Assembly: GCF_024499055.1 (NCBI RefSeq)
Contig: NZ_CP071249.1
Coordinates: 2,039,001-2,103,000 of the forward strand
Direction: 5' to 3'
Length of the DNA: 64,000 nucleotides
DNA from: Turicibacter bilis
Lineage (GTDB): Bacteria; Bacillota_I; Bacilli_A; MOL361; Turicibacteraceae
Part shown: one piece after another, positions 22,227-27,731 of the stretch
Layout of the letters: each line of letters begins with the position of its first letter
Numbering within the stretch: the first letter of the stretch is position 1
Made by a program: the position numbers and the translations under genes
The notes under the pieces: generated by a model
The model's input: the letters and a program-made list of their open reading frames with translations, nothing else
Told to the model about the DNA's origin: nothing
Database searches by the model: none

Positions 22227-22322
22227 AAAGAACCTCCTATATAGTTACAGTTTATAACGAAAAATATTTTATTATTTGGCTATGTTAGCTAACTTTGTGA
22301 TTAATTATATGGAAAATAGATT

Positions 22323-23450
22323 ATAATATGGACATAAACTACACTTCAGTTAATTTACAGAAAGGATATCTAATATTATGTCAAAAAAGGATATAAAAGC
22401 TATAATAAAAGACTTAAAAAAGAATGAACTTACAGAATTAATTTCAGTAGCACAAGAAGTATTAAGTACTTTATTTAATTCTTCTGAAATTAGAGAGAAT
22501 GTTAAAGAAAGTAGATTTTCCAAGGGATATGAATGTCCAAAATGTCAATGTAAAGATGTAAATAAAAATGGGAAGTCTAACGGAAGACAAAGATATATCT
22601 GTAAACATTGTCGTACAAGTTTTGATGAGTTTACTATGTCTCCATTTTCTAATACAAAATTAGGTTTAGATAAATGGTTAAAATACTGTGAGTTAATGAT
22701 ATTAGGGCTTTCTGTAAGAAAATGTGCTGAAGAAGTTGGTGTAGGTGTTAAAACCTCTTTCTATATGCGTCATAGAATACTTGATGTAATCAATCTATCA
22801 TTAAAAAATGATAAAGTTGAAGGCATAGTAGAAGTAGATGAATGCTTTATTCGAGAGTCTTTTAAGGGTAATCATTCTAAAAGTACTACATTTGTAATGC
22901 CTAGAAACCCTAGAAAAAGAGGTAAAGGTAAAAATGATAAGAAGAAAAGAGGAATATCAAAAGAGCAGATTTGTATAGAGACCGCAATTGATAGAAAAGG
23001 AAATATCCTTATGGGTGCTGTTTGTAATGGTAGAATTACAACAAATCAAATAGTTAACTTTTTTGACAATAAAGTATGCGAAGGGGCTACTTTTTGTGTA
23101 GATTCACATAAATCATATGTGGGAATAAAGGATAAGTTAAACGTAGAATTAAAGCAAGTTCCTAGAGGAAAATCAATGATAGATACTGTTTATCATTTAC
23201 AGCATATAAATGCTCTTCACAGTAGCTTTAAGAGATGGTTAATGACTTTTAATGGTGTATCTACAAAATATATCAATAATTATTTAGCGTGGTTTAAATT
23301 TTTGCAACTAAGTAAAAAAAATAAGAAGAATGACCGAATTAAAGACATGTTAGTGAATGTAGCGACTAAGGATACATGTATAACTAGAACTACTATTAGA
23401 AATAGATTTATTGAGTTAACTTAAAATAAGAAACTTTACTCCATATTAAT
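22323..23450 (+). mobile_element. IS1595-type insertion sequence (ends tentative)
   Basis: The transposase gene at 22378 is framed by GGACATAAACTAC on the left (from about 22330) and, on the minus strand, GGAGTAAAGTTTC on the right (to about 23442). Both begin GGA and match at only about half the positions, so they are weak terminal repeats. The flanking 8-mers are similar but not identical. The boundaries are therefore approximate. Confidence 0.5.
22378..23424 (+). CDS. IS1595 family transposase
   Basis: A 348-residue protein with an N-terminal zinc ribbon (CPKCQCKD ... YICKHC, about residues 59-82) and an ISXO2-type catalytic domain: VEVDECF (first Asp), VDSHKSY (second Asp) and HINALHSSFKRWL...GVSTKYINNYLAWF near the end. 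Codon choice is rich in AGA and ATA, unlike the flanking native genes and like the resistance cassette that follows, so the two may have arrived together. The gene is complete. Confidence 0.92.
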   Translation: MSKKDIKAIIKDLKKNELTELISVAQEVLSTLFNSSEIRENVKESRFSKGYECPKCQCKDVNKNGKSNGRQRYICKHCRTSFDEFTMSPFSNTKLGLDKWLKYCELMILGLSVRKCAEEVGVGVKTSFYMRHRILDVINLSLKNDKVEGIVEVDECFIRESFKGNHSKSTTFVMPRNPRKRGKGKNDKKKRGISKEQICIETAIDRKGNILMGAVCNGRITTNQIVNFFDNKVCEGATFCVDSHKSYVGIKDKLNVELKQVPRGKSMIDTVYHLQHINALHSSFKRWLMTFNGVSTKYINNYLAWFKFLQLSKKNKKNDRIKDMLVNVATKDTCITRTTIRNRFIELT

Positions 23451-23465
23451 AAAACTATTTTGCGA

Positions 23466-23567
23466 TTGGAAAATAATAGAATATTTTGTACAATATAATA
23501 AGGTTCGTAATTGTTATATATTGTGAACTTCGATATACTTTACAGTGAATATTATTTATGTTACTAT
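23466..23567 (+). promoter_or_regulatory. Tandem promoters of the resistance cassette
   Basis: Two sigma-A type promoters with ideal 17-bp spacers: TTGGAA (23466) with TACAAT (23489-23494), and TTTACA (23539) with TACTAT (23562-23567). The second would start transcription about 25 bases before the first leader ORF. Confidence 0.6.
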
Positions 23568-23600
23568 TAAATTTGATAAAACAAGAAAGGAGTTAGATTT

Positions 23601-23681
23601 ATGATAAATTTATATAGAATGATTAATAAATTAAAAATAATAGATATAACTCCTACATATATATTATATAAATATATTTAA
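23601..23681 (+). CDS. Leader peptide 0 (26 residues) with a KLK arrest motif
   Basis: A short ORF with the strong ribosome binding site AAGAAAGGAG. Residues 8-13 read INKLKI; Lys-Leu-Lys fits the +X+ motif at which macrolide-bound ribosomes stall. The ORF runs through the 5' arm (ACTCC, 23649-23653) of a possible antiterminator and ends 10 bases before the terminator hairpin. Its amino acids are otherwise dull, which suits a regulatory leader. Inference: stalling at KLK leaves the antiterminator arm free and allows read-through. Confidence 0.65.
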   Translation: MINLYRMINKLKIIDITPTYILYKYI

Positions 23682-23728
23682 GACATATATCTGCTGGAGT
23701 ATTTAATTATATTCAAGCGGATTTTTTT
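23649..23728 (+). promoter_or_regulatory. Attenuator after leader peptide 0
   Basis: Terminator: CTGCT-G-GAGTAT (23691-23702) pairs with ATATTC-A-AGCGG (23709-23720), followed by ATTTTTTT. Competing fold: ACTCCTACATATAT (23649-23662) with ATATATCTGCTGGAGT (23685-23700), which uses the 5' half of the terminator. The two are mutually exclusive, as in classical transcription attenuation. Confidence 0.65.
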
Positions 23729-23755
23729 ATTAACTAAAATAAGGAGGTGGCTATA

Positions 23756-23785
23756 ATGCTTGCATATATCAGATTAAGAGGATAG
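23756..23785 (+). CDS. Leader peptide 1, MLAYIRLRG
   Basis: A nine-residue ORF behind the strong site AAGGAGGTGG. It ends in RLRG; RLR is the arrest motif of ErmD-type and mef(A) leader peptides, where ribosomes stall in the presence of macrolides. The stop codon is part of hairpin GATAGC/GCTATC (23781-23804), and a second hairpin (23787-23840) begins two bases after it. The same IRLRG ending recurs in leader peptide 2, 1 kb downstream. Confidence 0.8.
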   Translation: MLAYIRLRG

Positions 23786-23845
23786 CGCACGAGTTGTGGC
23801 TATCGTTAAACAAATTTAATAAAATGTCATAACTTCGTGCTATTT
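23781..23845 (+). promoter_or_regulatory. Attenuator hairpins after leader peptide 1
   Basis: GCACGAGTTGTGGC (23787-23800) pairs with GTCATAACTTCGTGC (23826-23840) as 14 bp with one bulged base, followed by a weak T-rich run. A competing 6-bp hairpin GATAGC/GCTATC (23781-23804) overlaps its 5' arm. A ribosome stalled at RLR would cover bases up to about 23790 and disturb both. Confidence 0.65.
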
Positions 23846-23879
23846 TATATGAATAATAGAAATAGGAAGGTTATGAACA

Positions 23880-24758
23880 ATGAGAAAATTAAAAAAGATT
23901 GAAGTTTTAAGAGAATTACTTAATGAAAATATATCAATACTTAGATGTCCAGTGTGTAAAAAATCTATAAAATCTATAAAAGAAAGTAGTGTATTATGTG
24001 AAAATAACCATTGCTTTAATATATCTAAAAAAGGATATGTTAATTTAGTAAAGAATAATGCTAAGACAATATATGATAAAAAATTATTTGAATCTAGAAG
24101 TAAAATATATGAATATGGTATATATGACGAGCTTTCTAAAGAGATAATGGATATAGTGGATAAATATACGTCAAAAAAGAATGCTAATTTTGTACTAGAT
24201 GTTGGTTGCGGAGAAGGGTATTATTTAAATCAACTATATTCAGATGAAAAAATAAATAGTAAGTGTAAATTATTTGGAATAGATATATCAAGAGAAGGAA
24301 TTTCACTTGCTACAAGATACGAAAATAGCATACTATGGAGTGTCTCAGACTTATCAAATCTACCATTTGAAAATGGTAAATTTGATATAATAATAGATAT
24401 ACTTTCACCATCGAATTATAGTGAATTTACTAGAGTTTTAAACAAAGGTGGAGTTGTAATAAAAGTAATTCCAGATGAACACTACTTAAAAGAGATAAGG
24501 TCTAAAATAAAAGATAAAATAAAAAAAGACACTTACTCTAATAAAAATGTTATAAATTCATTTAAAGATAACTTGGAAATCGTCTATGATAAAAGAATCA
24601 CTTATAAAACAAATATATATAATTTAGAAGATTTTATAAAAATGACGCCATTAACATCTGGTTTGAGCAAAGAACAAATAAATGAATTAACTAAATGTGA
24701 TATAGAAAATATAACGATTGATTTAAAAATTATAGTCGGTAAAGTAGGTAAAAGTTAG
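23880..24758 (+). CDS. RlmA(II)/TlrB-like 23S rRNA guanine-N1 methyltransferase
   Basis: A 292-residue protein. The N-terminal zinc site is C23-X2-C26-X13-C40-X3-H44, as in RlmA. The SAM motif VLDVGCGEGYY lies near residue 105, followed by FGIDISREG and the RlmA-like SPSNYSEFTRVLNKGG near 180. RlmA(II)/TlrB methylates G748 in the exit tunnel and gives resistance to tylosin-type macrolides; RlmA(I) acts on G745. Which base is used here cannot be read, but the macrolide-type leader peptides favour resistance. Codons are AGA/ATA-rich, which suggests transfer from a clostridial host. AGGAAGG precedes the ATG. Confidence 0.85.
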   Translation: MRKLKKIEVLRELLNENISILRCPVCKKSIKSIKESSVLCENNHCFNISKKGYVNLVKNNAKTIYDKKLFESRSKIYEYGIYDELSKEIMDIVDKYTSKKNANFVLDVGCGEGYYLNQLYSDEKINSKCKLFGIDISREGISLATRYENSILWSVSDLSNLPFENGKFDIIIDILSPSNYSEFTRVLNKGGVVIKVIPDEHYLKEIRSKIKDKIKKDTYSNKNVINSFKDNLEIVYDKRITYKTNIYNLEDFIKMTPLTSGLSKEQINELTKCDIENITIDLKIIVGKVGKS

Positions 24759-24769
24759 GAGGTAATAAA

Positions 24770-24814
24770 ATGAATATACGTGGATGTATACATTCAATAA
24801 GATTAAGAGGATAA
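24770..24814 (+). CDS. Leader peptide 2, MNIRGCIHSIRLRG
   Basis: A 14-residue ORF behind TTAGGAGG at seven-base spacing, starting 12 bases after the methyltransferase stop. It ends IRLRG, as does leader peptide 1. A hairpin begins at once after the stop. It is placed to control hflX separately from the methyltransferase. Confidence 0.8.
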   Translation: MNIRGCIHSIRLRG

Positions 24815-24891
24815 GGCACGGGTTGTGGCTATTGTCTTAACATAATTAAAAGTCATAATCCCGTGATATTTAAATATTTAAGTTTAAATAT
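24815..24891 (+). promoter_or_regulatory. Attenuator hairpin after leader peptide 2
   Basis: CACGGGTTGTGGC (24817-24829) pairs with GTCATAATCCCGTG (24852-24865), 13 bp with the same bulge as in the leader 1 hairpin. One A-T pair of that hairpin is G-C here, a compensatory change supporting the RNA fold. A second stem ATATTTAAA/TTTAAATAT (24866-24891) follows. Confidence 0.65.
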
Positions 24892-24907
24892 AAAATTATA
24901 GGAGATT

Positions 24908-26158
24908 ATGAAAATGAGAAAAAGAGGAATAATTGTAGGAATTAATATAAATAACAAAAATAATTTTGAGGAATCTATAATAGAACTTAAGAATTTATGT
25001 ATAGCTTGTGATATAGAAATAGTTGGAGAAATGGAGCAAAATTTAAAGAAGATAAATCCAACTTTCTATATGGGTAGTGGTAAAATTGAAGAATTACGAG
25101 ATTTAATCGAAGAGATGAATGCTGAAATAATAGTATTTAATAATGAATTATCTGCATCACAGATAAAAAATATTGAAGAAGAAGTAAAGTGTAGTATTAT
25201 AGATAGGACAGCTTTAATACTAGATATATTTGCAAATAGAGCAAAAACAAGAGAAGCTAAGTTGCAAGTAGAGGTTGCAAGGCTTCAGTATGAACTCCCA
25301 AGGTTAATTGGTGCCAATGAAAACCTAGGTCGTCAAAGTGGTGGAGTTGGTACTAAAAATAGGGGAGCAGGAGAAACGAAGTTAGAACTAGACCGTAGAC
25401 GTATAGAAGATAGAATAGCTAGTTTAAACAAGGAATTAGAAATATTGAAGTATCAAAGAAATACTCAAAAAAACAAAAGAAAAAAATCTAGCATACCTAA
25501 TGTAGCACTAGTAGGATATACTAATGCAGGTAAATCGTCAGTTATGAATGTATTAGTTGAAAAGTTTATTAATAAAGAAGATAAAAAAGTATTTGAAAAA
25601 AACATGCTATTTGCAACATTGGAGACTTATGTTAGAAATATTAAACTACATAATAACAAATCTTTTTTACTGTATGATACAGTTGGATTTGTAGGCGATT
25701 TGCCTCATAACTTAGTTAAAGCTTTTAGATCAACACTGGAGGAGGTTTGCGATGCAGACTTATTAGTTCATATTATAGATATATCTAATCCTAATTATAA
25801 AAATCAGATAGATGTTACTAATGAAACATTAAGCCAAATAGGAGCTGATAATATTCCTATGATTTATGTATATAATAAGATTGATTTAATTGATTTAGAT
25901 AAATTAGATAATAATAAAATATTAATTTCAGCTAAAAGAGATATAGGAATAGATAGATTAATAGAATCTATTTGTGAAAAAGTATTTGAAGATTATATAA
26001 GATTTAAGTTAAAAATTCCATATTCAGAAGGAAAGATGATATCTAATATAATGGAGAATGCAACTATCTTAGACTCTGAATATATAGAGGATGGAGTAAT
26101 ATTCAATATTGAATTTAGTGAAAAAGAGTATGTTAAATATAAACAATACATAATTTAG
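24908..26158 (+). CDS. hflX: HflX-type ribosome-splitting GTPase
   Basis: A 416-residue protein with the full HflX plan: N-terminal nucleotide-binding domain (PTFYMGSGKIEEL; IVFNNELSASQIKN), the coiled linker with GRQSGGVGTKNRGAGETKLE near residue 140, then the GTPase with G1 GYTNAGKSS (about 200), G3 DTVGF and G4 NKID. HflX splits stalled 70S ribosomes; in Listeria and mycobacteria homologues protect against macrolides and lincosamides. It is in the same operon as the rRNA methyltransferase and has its own RLR leader. Foreign codon use. This is likely an additional copy of hflX dedicated to resistance. Confidence 0.92.
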   Translation: MKMRKRGIIVGININNKNNFEESIIELKNLCIACDIEIVGEMEQNLKKINPTFYMGSGKIEELRDLIEEMNAEIIVFNNELSASQIKNIEEEVKCSIIDRTALILDIFANRAKTREAKLQVEVARLQYELPRLIGANENLGRQSGGVGTKNRGAGETKLELDRRRIEDRIASLNKELEILKYQRNTQKNKRKKSSIPNVALVGYTNAGKSSVMNVLVEKFINKEDKKVFEKNMLFATLETYVRNIKLHNNKSFLLYDTVGFVGDLPHNLVKAFRSTLEEVCDADLLVHIIDISNPNYKNQIDVTNETLSQIGADNIPMIYVYNKIDLIDLDKLDNNKILISAKRDIGIDRLIESICEKVFEDYIRFKLKIPYSEGKMISNIMENATILDSEYIEDGVIFNIEFSEKEYVKYKQYII

Positions 26159-26253
26159 CATTAACTTAGATATATGATATAAAGTATATTACTATAGTTG
26201 AGAATTAATTAAATTACAAAATTAATAAAGCACGAACAATTTGAAGCAATCTA

Positions 26254-26313
26254 TAAAAATAACCACATCTTAGAATTCAATATATTGAAAATACTAATGT
26301 GTGGTTATTTTTA
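26254..26313 (+). terminator. Terminator of the resistance operon
   Basis: AAAAATAACCACAT pairs with ATGTGTGGTTATTTTT across about 30 bases; it ends the methyltransferase-hflX unit. Confidence 0.75.
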
Positions 26314-26540
26314 TGCCATATTTATCACGAAGAAAGCTAACATAGCCTATTATTTAAAGGATTAAATTAACAATTTTTTAGAAATGAGTTAGAGTATTTT
26401 CTGGTTCATATATCTTATCGTTATTAGTTTTGTTTCCTTCTACATACTTATATTGTGTGAATAGTAATTTATTTTATCTAATTTTCTATTAATGTGCAAT
26501 TTTAAAGAAAAATTTTCCATCATATGAAAATACACTGATC

Positions 26541-27731
26541 CTACGCAATTTTCAACTCTTCAAAAATGGTTTTTAATGCCACTCCATTTTGGGCTTTACG
26601 ATAAATTATTTTTACTAATTCTTGCTTTTGTTTTCGTTGACATTGGCGTAAACTTTCACCCAGACAACTGTTGTTCGGAGTCATGCGCTTTAAATAAAGG
26701 TAAACGAATTGAATCATTAACATCAATCGTTTAATTCCTTTCAAGGCTCGAATCTGATACTGTCCCATTCCAAAATTTTGCTTCACTTCTCGGAAAAAGA
26801 TTTCAATGGGCCAACGTTTAGTATAGTGTTTAAGCAGTTGCTTGGCAGACATTTTTAGATCATGACTCACAAAACAACGTAAAGCTTTTTCTTCCAAAGG
26901 AGCCGTGTGAGGCCAACTTAAAATGATTTGAACGACATGTCCCCCTCTTATCCTTCCTTGATATAGATAAGTATAATAACGCTCAGATCCGACAGTCACT
27001 AAGTCGAGATCTTTGAGGGATAAGGTGTTCGCAAATTGTTTCAGTTGAATCCCTTTCGGACGATAGCCTTTAGGCAGAATGATTCGATTCGTTTTGATAC
27101 CTCCTAAGTAATAAAAGCCTAATTGATTAGCGATTTGGAATAAGGCTTCACACGAATACCAACTATCAGCTAGGATGTATCCTTTATGAGGTGGTTTAGG
27201 TAAAGTGGTGAGAATCTCTTTAACGAGTTCAATTTTACTCTGTTTATCTTTCTCATACGGAATGATTTGATACGGTAAGATGACATCATCACATTGAAGC
27301 ATCACAGTAACAAATTGATGACCATAAACGGATTGATGATGAAGATGAGAGTAGTGCCAATCACATCCTTGAATAGGATAAGTCGCCTGTGACGAAGGCT
27401 TCGTTTTAACACATGTTGTATCATCTACTAATACGTAAATAGGTTTTCCTGTTTGATGTGAACGATTGTAAAGGCAAGAGAGAAGATAGGCTTGAATTTG
27501 ATTAGAAATCGCCCCATCATCCCAGGGACTATCATTTAAAAATCGTCCAAAAGTTGTCCGATGACAATGCTTAACGGCAGAGATTTTCCCCTGATAATTT
27601 TCCTGAATCATCACGTTTAGAAACTGGTTAAGATGATTAAACTGAGGTTTAGATAAAAATAAATCTAAGTCAAGCTGTTTTAGAAATTTGAAAATTGAAT
27701 TTGAATCTGATATAATACTGTCCATGAACAT
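26541..27731 (-). CDS. IS4-superfamily transposase (DDE)
   Basis: A 396-residue transposase with first catalytic Asp in VLVDDTTC (about residue 103), second in ILADSWYS (about 190) and the IS4 signature Y-X2-R-X3-E-X6-K in YTKRWPIEIFFREVK near residue 315. All catalytic residues are present, so it may be active. Codon use is like the native genes (CGT, CAT), unlike the cassette next to it. It therefore may have arrived separately. Confidence 0.93.
   Translation of the reverse strand: MFMDSIISDSNSIFKFLKQLDLDLFLSKPQFNHLNQFLNVMIQENYQGKISAVKHCHRTTFGRFLNDSPWDDGAISNQIQAYLLSCLYNRSHQTGKPIYVLVDDTTCVKTKPSSQATYPIQGCDWHYSHLHHQSVYGHQFVTVMLQCDDVILPYQIIPYEKDKQSKIELVKEILTTLPKPPHKGYILADSWYSCEALFQIANQLGFYYLGGIKTNRIILPKGYRPKGIQLKQFANTLSLKDLDLVTVGSERYYTYLYQGRIRGGHVVQIILSWPHTAPLEEKALRCFVSHDLKMSAKQLLKHYTKRWPIEIFFREVKQNFGMGQYQIRALKGIKRLMLMIQFVYLYLKRMTPNNSCLGESLRQCQRKQKQELVKIIYRKAQNGVALKTIFEELKIA

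Follow-up and report, generated by a model that had tools for sequence, protein, structure and literature searches.

The tlrB (yxjB) gene of Bacillus subtilis is preceded by a 9-amino-acid leader, MIIQFIRYR, which ends in R-X-R; a ribosome stalled on this leader relieves the hairpin that sequesters the Shine-Dalgarno (SD) sequence of the gene, tylosin provokes the stall at a position matching a P site on the Leu of RLR, and 180 similar leaders have been reported ahead of tlrB homologues (PMC6851288). In Listeria, hflXr (lmo0762) confers resistance by ribosome splitting and is governed through rli80, in which a 14-amino-acid RLR leader works by transcription attenuation (PMC6310831). An HflX from sediment gave macrolide resistance in functional metagenomics as well (PMC5776109), and the IS1595 elements tISCpe8 (lnuP) and MTnSag1 (lnu(C)) are known to carry lincosamide cargo between 25-bp repeats and 8-bp duplications (PMC5704250). 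Here we describe a locus of Turicibacter bilis, within a stretch of 64,000 nucleotides (contig NZ_CP071249.1, positions 2,039,001 to 2,103,000; the whole stretch is called the window, and its own numbering is used below), which we consider likely to be a transposon-borne macrolide/lincosamide-type resistance operon, with an RlmA(II)/TlrB-like and an HflXr-like gene each under its own translational attenuator.

The locus shares a different part with each of its closest relatives. As in B. subtilis, an RlmA(II)-type gene lies behind a short R-X-R leader (PMC6851288); unlike tlrB, a single chromosomal gene whose one leader serves both a terminator and an SD hairpin, it has an hflX partner and a transposon around it, and its leader carries an additional Gly past RLR. 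As in Listeria, an HflX paralogue stands behind an RLR leader with ribosome-mediated attenuation, predicted in our case, whereas Listeria hflXr is a single gene whose leader reads RLR-F-P and the window leader reads RLR-G-stop. Inducible ermC-type translational attenuation offers the same predicted sequence of leader, stall-dependent exchange of pairing and SD release; unlike it, the present modules stand in series, one per gene, and precede four unrelated gene families. The carrier resembles tISCpe8 and MTnSag1 in its IS1595 DDE transposase, terminal inverted repeats (TIRs) of about 25 bp, 8-bp duplications and AT-rich targets, but where those have one resistance cargo it bears an attenuated two-gene rlmA-hflX operon and is larger (4.07 kb). 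The mef/mel attenuator likewise makes a macrolide efflux gene drug-dependent, to be compared with a mef-like leader of Romboutsia, MIHSMRLR, and differs in acting by transcription attenuation and in its hairpin family (PMC4335068). What appear undescribed are the rlmA-hflX pairing, the shared RNA module and the mobile carrier; in the open literature, subscription journals aside, we found no paper on rlmA with hflX, nor on hflX on an IS1595 element. The novelty that an earlier, sequence-only reading of this DNA had claimed for the pair under RLR leaders thus holds for the combination, while each half had already been published (PMC6851288, PMC6310831).

That reading had proposed three leader open reading frames (ORFs) with KLK, RLR and RLR, a hairpin after each, and two genes of the RlmA/TlrB and HflX types. 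All of these are present: the leaders start at 23601, 23756 and 24770 with good SD sequences, both genes are intact, with profile evidence for their families and a tree for HflX, and each leader has its hairpin, that of leader 1 being an intrinsic terminator. The features are as follows.

22270 to 22277, no strand: left copy of the target site duplication (TSD), 8 bp, TATTATTT, identical to 26348 to 26355.
22278 to 22303, plus strand: left TIR, GGCTATGTTAGCTAACTTTGTGATTA (beginning GGCTATGTTAGCT), with an inverted match at the right end.
22378 to 23424, plus strand: IS1595-family transposase, 348 amino acids (NF033547, 197.5 bits against a cutoff of 75).
23539 to 23567, plus strand: putative promoter, TTTACA-17-TACTAT with TG ahead of the -10 (same arrangement 5′ of leader 1 in loci L004 and L009).
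23601 to 23681, plus strand: leader ORF 1, 26 amino acids, MINLYRMINKLKIIDITPTYILYKYI, with KLK mid-ORF and a good SD.
23689 to 23728, plus strand: intrinsic terminator 3′ of leader 1, stem ATCTGCT/AGCGGAT followed by seven T (fold -13.6 kcal/mol).
23756 to 23785, plus strand: leader ORF 2, MLAYIRLRG, predicted sensor for rlmA (match to module model R1, 113.6 bits).
23788 to 23801, plus strand: rlmA attenuator arm A, CACGAGTTGTGGCT (A:B covariation, 9 pairs changed on both sides).
23826 to 23839, plus strand: rlmA attenuator arm B, GTCATAACTTCGTG, partner of A or C (covariation, stall simulation).
23864 to 23876, plus strand: rlmA attenuator arm C, the SD region of rlmA, AGGAAGGTTATGA (B:C covariation).
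23880 to 24758, plus strand: rlmA/tlrB-type 23S rRNA (guanine-N1) methyltransferase, 292 amino acids (intact ORF, profile searches).
24770 to 24814, plus strand: leader ORF 3, MNIRGCIHSIRLRG, predicted sensor for hflX (R1 match, 111.9 bits).
24817 to 24830, plus strand: hflX attenuator arm A, CACGGGTTGTGGCT (R1 match, covariation, stall simulation).
24852 to 24865, plus strand: hflX attenuator arm B, GTCATAATCCCGTG (covariation, stall simulation).
24900 to 24911, plus strand: hflX attenuator arm C, the SD region of hflX, AGGAGATTATGA (B:C covariation; sequestered in the minimum free energy structure).
24908 to 26158, plus strand: hflX, HflXr group, 416 amino acids (intact ORF, profile searches, tree).
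26258 to 26315, plus strand: terminator-like hairpin at the operon end, AATAACCACAT...ATGTGTGGTTATTTTT (by sequence reading; counterpart in L005).
26322 to 26347, minus strand: right TIR (inverted GGCTATGTTAGCT... from 26347), matching the left end.
26348 to 26355, no strand: right copy of the TSD, 8 bp, TATTATTT, a perfect copy of the left.

Leaders 2 and 3 have strong SDs and a stop codon one codon past RLR, and the hairpins behind them are not classical terminators. A strict terminator pattern scan found none in the region, the leader 1 terminator being clear by folding only, and Rfam gave no match up to E=5. The first ATG of hflX (24908) falls within arm C, and the better-spaced start is 24914.

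Transposase, leaders and both genes are enclosed by a complete IS1595-family transposon (22278 to 26347, 4,070 bp), which the sequence-only reading had overlooked, as it had the module before erm and mef-like genes. Since the operon is the cargo of an element with TIRs and a perfect TSD, it was laterally acquired; the G+C content here is 24-28%, against about 33% in the surroundings. The transposon ends and 8-bp TSDs are seen in three independent insertions: besides the window, L004 has the same TIRs, a perfect TSD (TAATAAAA) and a cargo of rlmA, truncated hflX, erm and hflX in an element without transposase, and L094 has the same TIRs, a perfect TSD (TTAATTTA) and a cargo of erm and hflX. The window transposase is 81-82% identical to those of L089, where it lies 5′ of the same cassette, and of L102 (82%). 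L102 (2796-4911) is itself an IS1595 element with a polysaccharide deacetylase gene and a perfect 8-bp duplication, AAAATAAA, on an E. faecium plasmid. An IS701-family transposase (window 26541-27731, minus strand) adjoins the right end of the transposon. In plasmid searches with leader DNA, the sole matches were module 3 as it occurs in P. bifermentans and, on a Ligilactobacillus plasmid, a short stretch beside the transposon end.

Both RLR leaders are part of one RNA module, which consists of the leader ORF, an arm A 3′ of the leader stop, an arm B further downstream and an arm C formed by the SD region of the gene. A lack of leader conservation in homologous loci would have refuted the earlier reading, a test that the RLR leaders pass: R1, a covariance model built from nine modules, has matches in 21 of the 297 genomes scanned from a single clostridial order. 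Within the host's class (296 genomes) the module is confined to the window's genome, and a phylum-wide scan (sparse sample, strict filters) gave nothing except the query genome; as the large R1 scans scored few candidates per genome under strict filters, the counts are lower bounds. All readable matches have an in-frame leader of 9-15 amino acids whose last residues are R/K-X-R/K followed by G or R (RLRG, RLRR, RIRG, RIRR, RLKG), and the genes behind the module are solely rlmA, hflX, erm or mef-like, the last in G187 and on a P. bifermentans plasmid (L009). They are arrayed as rlmA-hflX, rlmA-hflX-erm-hflX, erm-hflX, hflX-mef and mef-hflX-rlmN; the module-linked erm product scores above the Erm family cutoff, and the other partners are Mef-like pumps. 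It seems fairly probable that the module is a portable drug-sensing cassette, reused and shuffled before rlmA, hflX, erm and mef, and that transposons build operons from it in which each gene senses for itself.

The pairings A:B and B:C are mutually exclusive, and both covary. For A:B, 96.4% of cells are paired and both sides have changed at 9 of 19 pairs, a level reached in none of 500 shuffles. The B:C pairing, not used in fitting the alignment, is formed in 91.8% of cells, and 4 of 8 pairs have changed on both sides, as in UCAUAAUC:GAUUAUGA, CCAUAAU:AUUAUGG and GCACAAUC:GAUUGUGC; it lies above all 500 shuffles in paired cells and covariation score and above all slid versions, the count of further pair types not exceeding the shuffles. 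Folded with no ribosome, both window modules sequester the SD, with B:C at 0.94 and 0.97. When the P site is placed at the Leu of RLR, A:B stands at 0.73 and 0.77 and B:C is down to 0.17 and 0.12, and with the ribosome one codon further the SD is sequestered again in both. Across 25 distinct modules, the B:C probability has a median of 0.65 in the free RNA, 0.23 with a stalled ribosome and 0.86 with a terminating one. The stall model computes equilibrium folds in which the ribosome footprint and all sequence upstream of it are blocked, and it illustrates a switch without proving one; the outcome depends on that choice, for with the footprint alone blocked the upstream leader is free to mispair and the switch is weak, and with the upstream part blocked too it is clear. 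Each of leaders 2 and 3 has the look of an ErmC-type translational attenuator serving its own gene. The serial leaders formerly assigned to the operon as a whole divide into these two and a separate leader 1, while the two-gene RLR operon stands.

In the mechanism that we propose, the message probably starts at the promoter 5′ of leader 1, and the terminator 3′ of that leader probably restricts read-through. With no drug present, each leader would be translated to its stop, B would pair with the SD of the gene and the gene would stay silent. A drug in the exit tunnel would stall the ribosome at R-L-R with the Leu codon in the P site, so placed that it halts before the core of arm A and disrupts the competing leader hairpin; A could then pair with B, and the SD would be released. 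RlmA would methylate the drug site, and HflX would split jammed ribosomes. The operon on its transposon is real and conserved; it is probably drug-inducible, and its part in resistance is a prediction.

Leader 1 is a different matter. Its sequence is kept only with this cassette, with five matches in 4 of the 297 genomes plus the P. bifermentans plasmid, and its relatives read MINLYRMINKLKIIDTTPKYNII (4 genomes) and MKNLYMIINKLNKTHITPTKTY (the plasmid, L009). The terminator stem is altered yet maintained in L004 (ATCCACT/AGTGGAT) and L009. An ACTCC/GGAGT anti-terminator was considered, the GGAGT half of which is absent from L004. Leader 1 is likely a transcription attenuator, with the KLK reading unsupported; it is a separate leader before an ordinary intrinsic terminator, and any regulatory role is one that we infer. 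The proposal of an operon under stalling leaders survives for the RLR leaders, conserved before defence genes, and finds no support for KLK, which is KLN in L009 and shows no modelled switch.

The rlmA product contains the RlmA zinc ribbon (PF21302) and an S-adenosylmethionine (SAM) methyltransferase domain (Methyltransf_31), both above cutoffs, and was aligned to the RlmA of 1p91. It reaches 170 bits on NCBIfam PRK11088, under that model's cutoff, and its best score is with the G745 model, ahead of TlrB, with no model reaching its cutoff, a pattern that Listeria RlmA shares. The methylated drug site is presumably G748, because Gram-positive RlmA is of type II (PMC6851288). The hflX product is full-length (TIGR03156, 439 bits against a cutoff of 217). 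In the HflX tree, the leader-controlled proteins form a clade (support 95/94) which, together with Listeria HflXr, the host HflX and a Lysinibacillus plasmid copy, makes up a group of 10 rows (88/98), with Lmo1296 outside it on a long branch; cargo HflX is 49% identical to Listeria HflXr (Lmo0762) versus 36% to Lmo1296. Cargo HflX is thus of the HflXr group by sequence, and by homology it would confer resistance through ribosome splitting. The rest of the host genome holds one further hflX (52% identical to cargo hflX; G000:C1:1945416-1946645, L002) and no rlmA besides the cargo copy. The host's own HflX clusters with Listeria HflXr, yet R1 finds no leader module at L002. Both genes are under purifying selection between diverged copies, with ratios of nonsynonymous to synonymous substitution (dN/dS) of 0.20 for rlmA (against the Romboutsia copy) and 0.15-0.17 for hflX.

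Several observations weigh against the operon as read here. No switch appears by equilibrium folding in L057, L059, L064, L067 and L069, and the mef-like copy of L009 has a leader without RXR, MNAKQAVIIFGI. KLK was rejected as a switch for want of support: in the model the window terminator forms at all P-site positions up to the last codon, and in L009 always. RlmA(II) is a housekeeping enzyme in many Gram-positives, and a cargo copy might bring modest resistance only. Alignment folding, moreover, extends A:B to a long stem touching the leader stop codon, which could also act on transcription. Were the A:B hairpins to work chiefly by termination and anti-termination and not through SD access, the locus would behave as the Listeria hflXr leader does (PMC6310831); in B. 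subtilis, tlrB is controlled at both levels (PMC6851288), the base of the long stem would be blocked by a stalled ribosome, and a genuine terminator is present 3′ of leader 1. We nevertheless think this rather improbable, as no terminator-like site at the A:B hairpins passes the scan, the U-rich stretch 3′ of B lies partly within the stem, a pure transcription model has no need of the covarying B:C pairing with the SD, and the rli80-type attenuator RNA is not matched, R1 finding nothing in Listeria L045 at E values up to 0.5.

Which drug is sensed bears on the label of the operon, and a defence aimed mainly at lincosamides, ketolides or phenicols is a possibility to be taken seriously, if not the expected one: lincomycin surpasses erythromycin as inducer of Listeria hflXr (PMC6310831), tlrB answers tylosin and not erythromycin (PMC6851288), and lincosamide genes are the cargo of related IS1595 elements (PMC5704250). 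Against this, R/K-X-R/K is the motif of macrolide arrest, and macrolides are the usual substrates of erm and mef-like genes, before which the module likewise stands. The operon might also be a passive passenger, recently arrived and of little effect in this host, which has an HflXr-like hflX already; its solitary occurrence in the class and its deviating G+C would agree with this. We regard it as unlikely, given that no ORF and neither attenuator is damaged; the low dN/dS between diverged copies indicates a cassette maintained across hosts and is not informative on this one. An R/K-X-R/K motif alone proves nothing, because a loose search (motif late in a short ORF, loose SD) returns 25 such mini-ORFs in the window. 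That the short ORFs arose by chance beside unrelated hairpins is nonetheless hardly credible, for RLR leaders and hairpins are conserved across the clostridial order in frame and position, before the same gene families and with covarying stems; this conservation refutes chance for leaders 2 and 3, and for leader 1 doubt is limited to KLK.

Further loci bear the same or similar modules. A divergent Erm with leader MIMNGGIASIRLRR occurs in L005 (6646-7419), L088 (1385-2158) and L094 (minus strand); its identity to the best-scoring plasmid-borne Erm is about 40%, and no plasmid-borne Erm reaches 60%. In L004 (5290-5330) and L089 (a G250 copy), a deletion takes out the erm leader and hairpin and fuses truncated hflX to the erm SD; if the model is true, erm would be constitutive there. 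L061-L068, from clostridial genomes, hold chromosomal rlmA, or in part another module gene, behind RIRG, RIRR or RLKG leaders, and may represent the module in its ancestral form. In Romboutsia L006 (2306-3620, minus strand), the mef-like gene, which has a hairpin and MIHSMRLR as its leader, gives a weak R1 match (30.5 bits) and is divergent from an rlmA with leader MSVLSYMRLRG. On the P. bifermentans plasmid (L009, 3201-4330), a hairpin and the leader MIINFMRIR accompany an RlmN/Cfr-like radical SAM methylase, which scores under every curated RlmN and Cfr cutoff and adjoins hflX, the mef-like gene and tetB(P).

The locus unites TlrB-type methylation, HflXr-type splitting and IS1595 elements in one mobile, apparently drug-inducible unit of Firmicutes. 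If this is true, resistance screens limited to erm, mef or msr would overlook the operon, and the R1 RNA model locates such inducible resistance genes by sequence alone, divergent Erm included. Serial per-gene sensors make a graded response testable, because a methylated ribosome should lose the stall needed by the next sensor; a portable cassette, if it is one, would allow graded, self-limiting responses.

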